This document shows positions 27,395 through 63,820 of a DNA stretch of 64,000 nt, piece after piece. The notes under the pieces are model-generated. The model saw nothing but the letters and a program-made list of their open reading frames with translations. It did not search any database and had not been told where the DNA came from. Made by a program: the position numbers and the translations under genes. Source of the DNA: Halorhabdus sp. BNX81 (lineage in GTDB: Archaea > Halobacteriota > Halobacteria > Halobacteriales > Haloarculaceae); the NCBI RefSeq assembly GCF_029229925.1, contig NZ_CP107254.1, forward strand, positions 682,001 through 746,000, given 5' to 3'. Position 1 is the first letter of the stretch, and every line of letters starts with the position of its first letter.

Positions 27395-28990
27395 TCAGTC
27401 CGAACTTGCTGTCTCTCGATCCATCAGTGTCCGTCCCCCGATGTACAGCACACTCATCGTCGCGCCCCAGATCAGGTGGGTGAGCAACGACGGAAGCGAC
27501 AGGCTCGGCAGCATCGCCGGCTCGCCGACGAGGCGCAACCAGAGTGGCATAATGACGCCTGCGGCGACGAGCCAGAGGGCGATCGCCCACCCCATCCCGA
27601 CTGCCAGACACCATCTGACGTCTTCGGCGTAGGGGTCGGGGACGGACGCGAGGATTCCAGCGTACATCAACCCGAAGACGACGCTGTGGAACTCGTGGGT
27701 AATCCAGCCGACGAGTGGCTGGGCGCTCCCGTACAGCGAGCCGATGATCGGTACCACACCCGATGTCGCCTGCCCGACGACGCCCATCGTGACGCCGGCG
27801 ACCAGCGACGCCACGACAGCCATCCCCATTTCGACACGGGAAACGCCGAAAGAATCGGCGGCCCGGACAGTCGATCGCCCGGGGTGAGTCCCGGTTGATG
27901 CCAGCGGGATCGCCAGATCGATCGTGGTCGTCTCGCCATCGTCGCTCGTTTCGGCGTGGCCGCCGATCGTATCGAGGACAAGCCTGACGACGTTGAGCCC
28001 GAATCCGCTTGCCGGGTCGTCGTAGTCGCCGCTGGTCCCCTCTTCGAGGATTGCCCGCTGGGAGTTGGTCAACGCCGCTCCGTCGTCCGTGATCCGGAGA
28101 TGGGCAAATCGATCGTCGTACTCGATGGCGATCGAAACCTGCGTGGGGCCGTTGTCACGGTCGGCCCCCCGCCGGAGGACGTGCTCGATCGCGCGGACGA
28201 GCATTTCGTTGCCCCAGACCGTCACCGATTCGTTCGGCCGGCGTTGGACCTCGTAGGAACATTCCGCCACTTCCTCGGAGACAGTGCCGACAGCCCGATC
28301 GACCGTCGTCGTTACGTCCATCGCGTCGAGTCCGCGCCTGGCACTTTCGGTCGTGCGAGCCAGGTGTTTGACGTCTTCGACGGTCCGCTGGATACCGTTC
28401 GACTGGGTCTGTACTGTCTCGACGACGCGATCTTGCAGCTCCGGATCGTCGCGTTCGCTGAGAATACCGATCTGACCGTCGATCACCAGCACGGCGTTGA
28501 GAACCCGATCGCGCAGACTTCGGTTGAGAATCTCCAGGCGGTCGGTCTGCTGTTTGAGTTCCTCGCGCTGGCGTCGGTTCTCGGCAGCATAGACGCCCGT
28601 CAGTGCGCCACCCATGGCCCCGCCAATCAGGAAGTTCGACAGGGCCGGTTGCCATTGGACGCCACCGAGCTCCCCCATCTCGTCGACGCCCGATCCCATC
28701 AGCGTCAGGACGACGAGCAGAAACATTCCGGACGCGCCGATCGCCGTCCAGAGGGCTGTGGTTCGGACGTAGCGTCGATCGAACGAGCCGACGGTCAACG
28801 CGACCCCGAATGCCGATAGGGTCAGGCCGAGCGTCAGTGGGACGATGCCAGCAAAGGCAAACCGCAACGGTTGCTCTCCGACGGTGAACGTCACGGTAAC
28901 GCGAGTCAGGCCGAACCCGATCACCGCCACGATCAACCCAGCCGGTGAGAGGCGACGGTTCACGGCGGATCTCAGTCCGAACAAAGACAC
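27395..28990 (-). CDS. Histidine-kinase-like membrane protein with degenerate catalytic motifs
   Basis: 531 residues from GTG at 28990, with a TATA-like stretch (GGTATTTT) about 28 nt upstream; a TTG at 29038 is an alternative. Four or five N-terminal helices, a coiled coil (about 150-180), a DHp-like region, an HATPase_c-like domain (about 240-350) and four C-terminal helices are seen. The expected phospho-accepting His (usual haloarchaeal LRHNxxN) is replaced in LRDRVLNAV. The N-box Asn is Arg (EHVLRRGADR) and the G1 box is DDGAAL. SGFGLNVVRLVL (G2) is kept. It is probably not a working kinase and may act as a binding or scaffold protein. Confidence 0.75.
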   Translation of the reverse strand: MSLFGLRSAVNRRLSPAGLIVAVIGFGLTRVTVTFTVGEQPLRFAFAGIVPLTLGLTLSAFGVALTVGSFDRRYVRTTALWTAIGASGMFLLVVLTLMGSGVDEMGELGGVQWQPALSNFLIGGAMGGALTGVYAAENRRQREELKQQTDRLEILNRSLRDRVLNAVLVIDGQIGILSERDDPELQDRVVETVQTQSNGIQRTVEDVKHLARTTESARRGLDAMDVTTTVDRAVGTVSEEVAECSYEVQRRPNESVTVWGNEMLVRAIEHVLRRGADRDNGPTQVSIAIEYDDRFAHLRITDDGAALTNSQRAILEEGTSGDYDDPASGFGLNVVRLVLDTIGGHAETSDDGETTTIDLAIPLASTGTHPGRSTVRAADSFGVSRVEMGMAVVASLVAGVTMGVVGQATSGVVPIIGSLYGSAQPLVGWITHEFHSVVFGLMYAGILASVPDPYAEDVRWCLAVGMGWAIALWLVAAGVIMPLWLRLVGEPAMLPSLSLPSLLTHLIWGATMSVLYIGGRTLMDRETASSD

Positions 28991-29032
28991 GGTGTTCCAA
29001 GGGCGGTCGCTGCTGGCAAAATACCTTGGGTG

Positions 29033-29416
29033 GAGCAACCGGTAGTGTTCAGATAAGGATCTGTCCAGAGTGAGACTGCCCTGAAAGCCCTCACCAGTTT
29101 CGGTCCCGCGACTCGCTGCGCGCTTCGAGCCTTTCAGGCTCTGCAGTGCTTGCTTCGTCGGGGTTCCCGAAAGGGGAGGTCGGCGTTGCCGACCTCCTCA
29201 AACCGTGGCGGCAGGGAGACGGCGTCGCCGTCTCCATTCGAGGCGGTGCAACCGCCTCGCAGCCGCCACGCGTGGCTCGCCCTTTCATTTTACCAGAAGA
29301 CGCAGTCTTCTGGTCGCCCGAAAATCTTCGATTTTCGCAGGCCGCCAGGATTCGGCTGGAAAGCCAGCAGAAACAGACTCTTTGCTCGGTGCTTATCTGA
29401 ACACCGTCGAGCAACC
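29033..29416. mobile_element. 368-bp MITE-like insertion with palindrome array and 8-bp target duplication
   Basis: The element occupies 29041-29408. It is flanked by GAGCAACC at 29033-29040 and 29409-29416, an 8-bp target-site duplication. Its ends are inverted: GTGTTCAGATAAG is at 29045-29057 and its exact complement at 29392-29404, giving a 13-bp perfect core in a 17-bp imperfect terminal repeat. No transposase ORF is present. Inside are at least six hairpins, five of them perfect 8-10 bp stems with a 3-nt loop. A non-autonomous element mobilised by a transposase elsewhere is the best reading. Confidence 0.8.
29175..29368. repeat. Serial perfect palindromes inside the MITE-like element
   Basis: Stem-loops lie at 29175-29197, 29215-29235, 29239-29259, 29292-29314 and 29319-29337. 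Each has 8-10 bp arms and a 3-nt loop (GTT, GTC, GCA, GCA, TTC). A smaller one lies at 29355-29368, and a 5-bp one at 29127-29141. The arms differ in sequence, so this is not a tandem repeat but a series of independent hairpins. Confidence 0.88.
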
Positions 29417-29439: not shown

Positions 29440-30174
29440 CTATCGATCGAGCTCGTCGACGGCTTCGGTGGCCAGTGCCTCGAACTCGGCCGTTTCGGGG
29501 ACGACGTCGACCGCGATCCCCTGCTCGCTGGCGGTCTCCCGTGTCGGCTCACCGATCGTCCCGACGACTGCGTCGGCCACTCCGTCGATCACCGCCTCCC
29601 GCTGGCCTCGCTCGCCCGCGATCGCCAGGAAGTGCTCGACCGTCAACGAGGAAGTGAAAAGCGCTGCGTCGAGGGTTCCGTCGACAGCGAGCTGTACGGA
29701 TTCTCCCGCTTCTTCGGGTCGGACGAGCCGATAGAGCACCGTCTCGTGGACGTACGCGCCGGCCGACTCCAGCCCGTCCAGCAACACGTCGCTGCCGTGG
29801 TCGCTGCGGGCGACCTCGACTCCCAGCCCGTCGACTTGCTCCCCGAGTGCATCGACGAGTCCGGACGAGGAGTACGTCTCGGGGACGACGTCGACCTCGA
29901 TTCCGTTCGCCCGGAGTGCCTCGGCCGTCGGCTCGCCGATCGCACACACTGTCGCGTCGCCGGGCGTCCAGTCGTCGGCCACCAGTTCGGCCCCGGTTTT
30001 GCTCGTGAAGATAACGACGGCCGCATCTGTACGGGGCTGAGCTCCGGTCGGCTCGACGCTGAGCATCGGGTCGGCGATCGGCTTCACGTCGAGCGATTCG
30101 AGGAGTTCGACCGCCGTCTCCAGTCGCTCGTCGTCCGGGCGGAAGACGGCGACAGTCGGCCGGTTGTCAGTCAT
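29440..30174 (-). CDS. hemD: Uroporphyrinogen-III synthase HemD
   Basis: 244 residues. The two-lobe HemD fold is recognised from VAVFRPDDERLETAVELLESL at the start, VIFTSKTGAELV, VCAIGEPTAEAL, AALFTSSLTVEHFLAIAG and VGTIGEPTRETA. It cyclises and rearranges hydroxymethylbilane to uroporphyrinogen III in haem, siroheme and cobalamin synthesis. The sequence is poorly conserved across the family, but position directly downstream of hemC (39 nt) settles the call. The MITE-like insertion lies 31 bp beyond its 3' end. Confidence 0.9.
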   Translation of the reverse strand: MTDNRPTVAVFRPDDERLETAVELLESLDVKPIADPMLSVEPTGAQPRTDAAVVIFTSKTGAELVADDWTPGDATVCAIGEPTAEALRANGIEVDVVPETYSSSGLVDALGEQVDGLGVEVARSDHGSDVLLDGLESAGAYVHETVLYRLVRPEEAGESVQLAVDGTLDAALFTSSLTVEHFLAIAGERGQREAVIDGVADAVVGTIGEPTRETASEQGIAVDVVPETAEFEALATEAVDELDR

Positions 30175-44724: not shown

Positions 44725-44838
44725 GACGACCTTTTTACTGCGGGGGGTCGCCACGGGCGACCCCCGCTTGCAAAAAGCTCGGCCAAAAACAGCCGAGCGC
44801 CGTCGGCGCTCGGCGAAACGCGGCGCTTCGCGCCGCGT
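44725..44838 (+). terminator. Hairpin array between convergent phoU and methyltransferase genes; REP-like element copy A
   Basis: After the phoU stop comes GACGACCTTTTTACT, then a 10-bp hairpin with a 3-nt loop (44743-44765). GCAAAAAGCTCGGCCAAAAA follows, then hairpins at 44777-44798, 44792-44814 (10-bp stem, sharing one arm with the previous) and 44818-44838 (9-bp stem). The segment 44725-44789 closely matches 63820-63759. The T-run and strong stems between two convergent genes suit a bidirectional terminator. The next gene ends at 44850. Confidence 0.7.
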
Positions 44839-63758: not shown

Positions 63759-63820
63759 TTTTTGGTCGAGCTTTTTGCGAGGAGGGTCGCCCTGCGACCC
63801 TCCGAAGTAAAAAGGTCGTC
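63759..63820 (-). terminator. REP-like hairpin element copy B after the PAPS-reductase-family gene
   Basis: Read on the minus strand it starts right after the TAA of the downstream gene: GACGACCTTTTTACT, then a 10-bp hairpin with a 3-nt loop (GGAGGGTCGC-AGG-GCGACCCTCC at 63802-63780), then GCAAAAAGCTCGACCAAAAA. It matches copy A (44725-44789) except for the stem and loop. In the stem an A-T pair replaces a G-C pair of copy A, a compensatory change. Probable terminator. Confidence 0.7.

Follow-up and report, generated by a model that had tools for sequence, protein, structure and literature searches.

The window, as we call the whole analysed stretch of 64,000 nucleotides of Halorhabdus sp. 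BNX81 DNA, carries a 368-bp intergenic, non-coding element with a sensor-kinase-like gene on one side and a hemD-like gene on the other, both named from a reading of their translations (Table 1). The length of the element, its perfect 13-bp terminal inverted repeats and the 8-bp duplication flanking it were all present where a preliminary description of this DNA had placed them. With four further outer bases the ends read GGTAGTGTTCAGATAAG on the left and GACGGTGTTCAGATAAG on the right. The same description had noted the lack of a transposase gene, and inspection of open reading frames indeed gave no transposase-like one of usable length within the element. It had also listed five perfect hairpins of 8-10 bp, each with a loop of exactly 3 nt; the five hairpins were found, with the 3-nt loop present in only four of them by maximal pairing. 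The predicted fold of the element was more stable than that of any of 100 shuffled sequences (z = -9.1; z = -8.0 for the other strand).

Table 1. Features of the element and its surroundings (positions in the window unless another locus is named)
Feature	Position	Strand	Remarks
Sensor-kinase-like gene	27395-29038	-
Left target-site duplication GAGCAACC	29033-29040		Same 4-bp offset from GTGTTCAG in sister copies and autonomous IS6
Element	29041-29408
Left end GGTAGTGTTCAGATAAG	29041-29057	+	Identical to 3' end of autonomous IS6-family L114, L117, L121
Left inverted repeat GTGTTCAGATAAG	29045-29057
Conserved hairpin module, uninterrupted part	29083-29172	+	Contains GAAAGCCC; covariance model R1 match 29079-29202, 90.7 bits
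Stem A, 5' arm CACCAGTTTCGG	29092-29103
Inner hairpin of stem B/C region	29127-29141
Start of 3' arm, CCGAAA	29167-29172
First extra hairpin segment, within stem A 3' arm	29173-29272	+	Not in 208-bp copies (copy comparison); place and layout common to L055, L077, L048
Hairpin GGAGGTCGGC-GTT-GCCGACCTCC	29175-29197	+	10 bp, loop 3
Nested cloverleaf, outer 9-bp stem CGTGGCGGC/GCCGCCACG around two hairpins	29204-29270	+
Hairpin	29215-29235		10 bp with 1-nt centre, or 9 bp with 3-nt loop
Hairpin	29239-29259		9 bp, loop 3
Module 3' boundary TGGCTCGCCCTTTCATT	29273-29289	+
Second extra hairpin segment, two hairpins	29290-29342	+	Same place in L048, L053, L080
Hairpin ACCAGAAGAC-GCA-GTCTTCTGGT	29292-29314		10 bp, loop 3
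Hairpin CGAAAATC-TTC-GATTTTCG	29319-29337		8 bp, loop 3
Right inverted repeat CTTATCTGAACAC	29392-29404
Right end GACGGTGTTCAGATAAG, inward reading	29392-29408	-	GACG here, GGCG in most copies
Right target-site duplication GAGCAACC	29409-29416
hemD-like gene	29440-30174	-
In-frame relatives of the two-hairpin unit	~1500 (L056, L29x loci); 403 (L259); 2861 (L260); 7020 (L261)

Copies of the element in the genome

A DNA search of the strain's own genome returned 34 matches to the element, and the 13-bp end occurred 26 times at no more than one mismatch, against a single occurrence of its reversed control. About 16 elements were recognised when the copies were read with their flanks. The usual, basic copy measures 208-209 bp; the window copy (360 bp including both GTGTTCAG motifs) and the copy at 649072 (526 bp) contain extra hairpin segments. 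Perfect 8-bp duplications flank seven copies, at 578673, 619493, 649072, 711045 (the window copy), 1273238, 1567094 and 2377401, and in each of them the duplication lies 4 bp outside GTGTTCAG. This offset identifies GGTAGTGTTCAGATAAG and GGCGGTGTTCAGATAAG as the true ends, the latter with GACG in the window. At the copy at 285779 seven of the eight duplication bases match. At 624865-625048 the copy carries GGCG on either side and lacks a duplication, which suggests recombination between copies.

In a congener (G006) the genes flanking the window copy lie next to each other. The matched flanks are about 55 bp apart there, compared with about 406 bp in the window, and the element is absent from this orthologous place. 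The exact empty site is unreadable in G006 because the target octamer has diverged. The 649072 locus is nearly identical to position 946638 of G006, although the hemC/hemD region is only about 91 % identical between the two species, hinting at recent transfer.

Relationship to IS6 elements

An autonomous element with the same ends was found in one related locus and encodes a 211-aa protein, which scored 25.6 bits against PF13610 (DDE_Tnp_IS240), just under the 27-bit cut-off. Autonomous elements of 697-701 bp are present at six loci among the relatives (L110, L111, L114, L116, L117 and L121). They possess the GTGTTCAGATAAG 13-bp ends (one end is off by one base in L111 and L116) and lie between perfect 8-bp duplications whose 4-bp offset is that of the MITE, and their outer four bases are mostly GGCG and GGTA. 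According to a review that also mentions two IS6 MITEs, one of 227 bp and one of 336 bp, IS6 elements create 8-bp duplications and carry GG tips, with a length of 700-750 bp in haloarchaea (PMC7986276). GG-tipped ends, 8-bp duplications and autonomous partners of about 700 bp are thus shared by the window family with haloarchaeal IS6 elements and IS6 MITEs. The element is very probably a non-autonomous IS6-family MITE, and the original reading of it as a MITE with intact target duplication was borne out by the related copies and by the IS6-family elements with the same termini in other haloarchaea. Unlike the IS6 MITEs of the review, the window family carries hairpin arrays and a conserved module of covarying hairpins, which often forms inverted pairs; no description of an IS6-type MITE with such a module or arrays was found in the literature searched.

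The strain's own genome gave no match to PF13610, and a transposase search of it gave only a weak remnant (E 2.9e-14). MITEs of Haloquadratum walsbyi share their ends with a transposon, and some reside in a genome with no functional transposase (PMC3119063); the window element resembles them in being transposase-free in a genome without an intact transposase.

Other affiliations were rejected. IS1595 (PF12762) as a parent had no match in the genome. An IS605/TnpB link was considered after the model of the PATEs of Haloquadratum, transposase-free elements that are related to IS605 and lack terminal repeats and target duplications (PMC3119063). None of the three TnpB genes of the genome has an adjoining module, and the window element has both terminal inverted repeats and a target duplication. 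The likewise transposase-free SMR elements of Haloquadratum, of which SMR-A insert into palindromes of other elements, make no duplications and have ends unlike those of known transposons (PMC3119063), whereas the window element has one and its ends match IS6 elements. A search of phage records gave no match.

The hairpin module in the order

The interior of the element contains a double-stem module of about 108 nt. In similarity searches the interior was matched in 39 of 59 genomes, not always together with the ends. Besides GAAAGCCC and CCCTTTCA, the extracted copies have in common a covarying stem A, a second stem and unpaired stretches that are conserved. A covariance model (R1) recovered 35 modules in the strain's own genome, exactly one of them in the window, and modules in 38 of the 59 genomes sampled across the order; the number was often 40-60 in one genome, and about a dozen genomes gave at least 35 matches, with no more than 60 candidates scored per genome. 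The high density of palindromes pointed out at the outset is indeed unusual, but they are not unrelated as was then thought, being made up of the conserved module and of units shared with other copies and species.

About ten pairs of modules in the strain's own genome are inverted and face each other, and the 208-bp form looks like such a pair from which the second module has been deleted. Some inverted pairs sit in elements whose ends are formed by a different terminal repeat, GTGTTTAGTTAAG or a close variant of it. The 8-bp duplications of these elements keep the same offset and read CACCGGAT at 2606101, TCCTCGAT at 247001 and GAAAGAAT at 2518069. Together with the locus at 2069975 they form a second MITE group with GTGTTTAGTTAAG-like ends and the same module as an inverted pair.

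Covariation of the stems and scarcity of G·U pairs

The stems of the module covary strongly. In 24 diverse copies the covariation score was 0.533, in comparison to 0.174 for shuffled and at most 0.131 for slid alignments, with 92.6 % of cells pairing; in 129 copies it was 0.666 versus 0.164 for shuffled ones. Where an RNA evolves step by step, G·U pairs are expected to be common. G·T cells made up 19 of 3269 (0.58 %) in the module as opposed to 106 of 1274 (8.3 %) in the RNase P RNA of 18 genomes of the same order; the share depends on the set, being 2.4 % in the smaller 24-copy alignment, still well under that of RNase P. When the cells of stem A were counted separately and without gaps, 1309 were Watson-Crick, 4 were G·T and 14 were A·C. 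Since covariation is strong and G·U pairs are almost absent, the palindromes appear to be shaped at the DNA level.

This bears on the view that the MITE spreads a structured RNA in the form of the module, whose covariation would then reflect RNA function; an RNA role had been suggested in the preliminary description. Compensatory change is strong, unpaired segments are conserved and the predicted folds are stable, all as such an RNA would have them. G·U is nevertheless about 14-fold rarer than in the RNase P RNA of the order, and, with two helix-end columns set aside, G·T mismatches are about as rare as A·C ones. The module has no orientation bias relative to flanking genes (50 of 110 on the same strand), a flanking tRNA was the only Rfam match above the gathering score, and the loops are of the DNA-stable GNA type. 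We therefore hold an RNA function to be improbable; a DNA-structural reading of the palindromes fits better. From the strand test for RNA no conclusion was drawn because the A·C excess in the 129 copies came mainly from the two helix-end columns. Single modules lie between convergent genes in 22 cases and between divergent genes in 8, the genes having been called by a simple codon-composition rule.

Loops and nesting of the hairpins

For loop statistics, distinct perfect hairpins of 8 bp or longer were compiled from the fetched loci and the window. Loops of 3 nt were the commonest (97), 48 hairpins had 1-nt loops and other lengths numbered 21-42. GNA (TNC on the other strand) accounted for 63 of the 97 3-nt loops versus 15 % expected, and 53 of the 63 were closed by C-G; the p-value of 1e-28 is too strong, related hairpins having been counted as distinct, and the direction is clear. 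Mini-hairpins of the GCGNAGC type are extraordinarily stable as DNA (PMC4686876). Hairpins with 3-nt loops are about five times denser near modules (0.381 versus 0.075 per kb elsewhere). The GNA type is not exclusive to modules, its share being 16 of 26 near them and 11 of 22 far from them. Perfect hairpins with 3-nt (or 1-nt) loops also lie between genes at 44743-44838 and 63781-63803 of the window, flanked by CTTTTT and AAAAAG; their loops are mostly not GNA, and they are possibly bidirectional terminators.

Comparison of copies revealed both compensatory change and gain or loss of whole segments. The locus L053, which comes from a different family of the order, has CGGAAATC/GATTTCCG where the window has CGAAAATC/GATTTTCG, and this change is compensatory. 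The hairpin CGTGGCGGC-loop-GCCGCCACG is simple, with a tiny loop, in L055, L077 and L080, and its loop contains two more hairpins in the window, L002, L048 and L052. The 649072 copy and its G006 counterpart are identical except for one loop base, one right-end base and a clean 58-bp two-hairpin segment, which is found in the counterpart only. In the RNase P RNA genes L273, L280 and L283 extra short-loop or nested hairpins resembling the MITE arrays occupy one variable position.

Relatives of the two-hairpin unit in protein genes

An exact search of the species genomes found the two-hairpin unit at three loci, and a similarity search matched it, in many cases only in part, in 31 of 146 genomes. 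At least eight unrelated genes (L056, L259, L260, L261, L293, L294, L295 and L296) contain its relatives in frame as cloverleaves of about 60 bp with two perfect hairpins and an outer stem GCGGRC or close to it. The encoded peptide of about 20 aa reads SG-x-[RG]GG-x-[TA]AS-x-[EG]T[AV]-x-PS-x-x-PR and begins SSGQGGGGTAS in L293. Three host domains were identified by Pfam (chorismate-binding, amine oxidase and GNAT), the remaining host names coming from reading of the sequence; phytoene-desaturase-like proteins are among the hosts. A plasmid search with a 23-aa peptide gave no match.

Rickettsia palindromic elements likewise are palindromic units in frame within unrelated proteins; the relatives of the unit in other haloarchaea resemble them in being in-frame coding inserts, whereas the window copy is non-coding. 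Mitochondrial double-hairpin elements each combine two short, perfect, small-loop hairpins and occur both scattered and nested. The haloarchaeal units may be compared with them by analogy in their paired, nested layout, the genomes and the sequences being different.

Origin of the palindromes

The best overall explanation, to which we assign a probability of roughly 0.6, is that the element is an IS6 MITE whose interior palindromes are DNA structures. An IS6-type transposase acting in trans, probably supplied by elements since lost from the strain, would bind the GGYRGTGTTCAGATAAG ends, insert the element and make the 8-bp duplication. When the palindromes became single-stranded, for example at a replication fork, their arms could fold back on each other, and a polymerase switching template would copy one arm from the other. 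Such copying would keep the stems perfectly Watson-Crick while their sequence drifted. C-GNA-G mini-hairpins would nucleate the folds, and hairpin loops and junctions would serve as sites of unit gain and loss, leading to a nested array. Template switching is known to create and maintain perfect hairpins and to produce instantaneous double changes, and it can repair hairpins (PMC8794818). Two base pairs are enough for a human repair polymerase to extend a fold-back (PMC11292364), a result that makes the chemistry possible and does not show its occurrence here. The pattern expected of template switching is present here, and it is from this pattern that we infer the process.

A purely mutational process does not explain the unpaired segments conserved between families of the order. 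As these are conserved while the stems drift, a sequence-specific constraint, whether a binding protein or another function, is likely. Selection for a protein that recognises DNA folded as a cruciform or hairpin might, in place of mutation bias, keep the arms perfect. The unpaired GAAAGCCC, CTCGCTGCG and CCCTTTCA.TCC, conserved beside freely varying stems, and the intolerance of G·T agree with this proposal, but no candidate protein is at hand and imperfect hairpins have persisted in degenerate copies, L078 among them, and we judge it unlikely. Arm correction, for its part, does not suffice for hairpins that are wholly absent from basic copies, which need insertion or deletion of units. The array might consist of small mobile palindromes capable of inserting on their own into MITEs, genes and the loops of hairpins, the MITE being one landing place; they would be comparable to the mitochondrial double-hairpin elements or the Rickettsia palindromic elements. 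The unit at 29204-29270 recurs with different outer stems and hosts, its relatives are in frame in protein genes, the short loop seen in L055, L077 and L080 is replaced by the unit in the window, and nested hairpins occur in some RNase P RNA genes too. No enzyme, target duplication or empty/occupied pair has, however, been established for the unit alone, and arm correction together with loss by deletion could yield part of the pattern. Self-insertion of units is in part compatible with the IS6 MITE with DNA-structural palindromes; taken by itself we consider it rather doubtful.

A broader proposal is offered tentatively. There may exist an undescribed haloarchaeal class of mobile C-GNA-G DNA-hairpin units that nest and occur in IS6-type MITEs, in RNase P RNA genes and in frame in proteins, their arms being kept perfect by arm-to-arm copying and not by RNA selection.

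Compensatory base changes are usually taken as proof of a functional RNA, and here a very common archaeal repeat covaries strongly while nearly lacking G·U pairs. Set beside the RNase P RNA of the same order, the repeat is a natural case for testing whether perfect stems can arise and persist through DNA template switching alone. Nested units, together with their relatives within protein genes, provide a means of following palindromes as they arise and move in a genetically tractable group.
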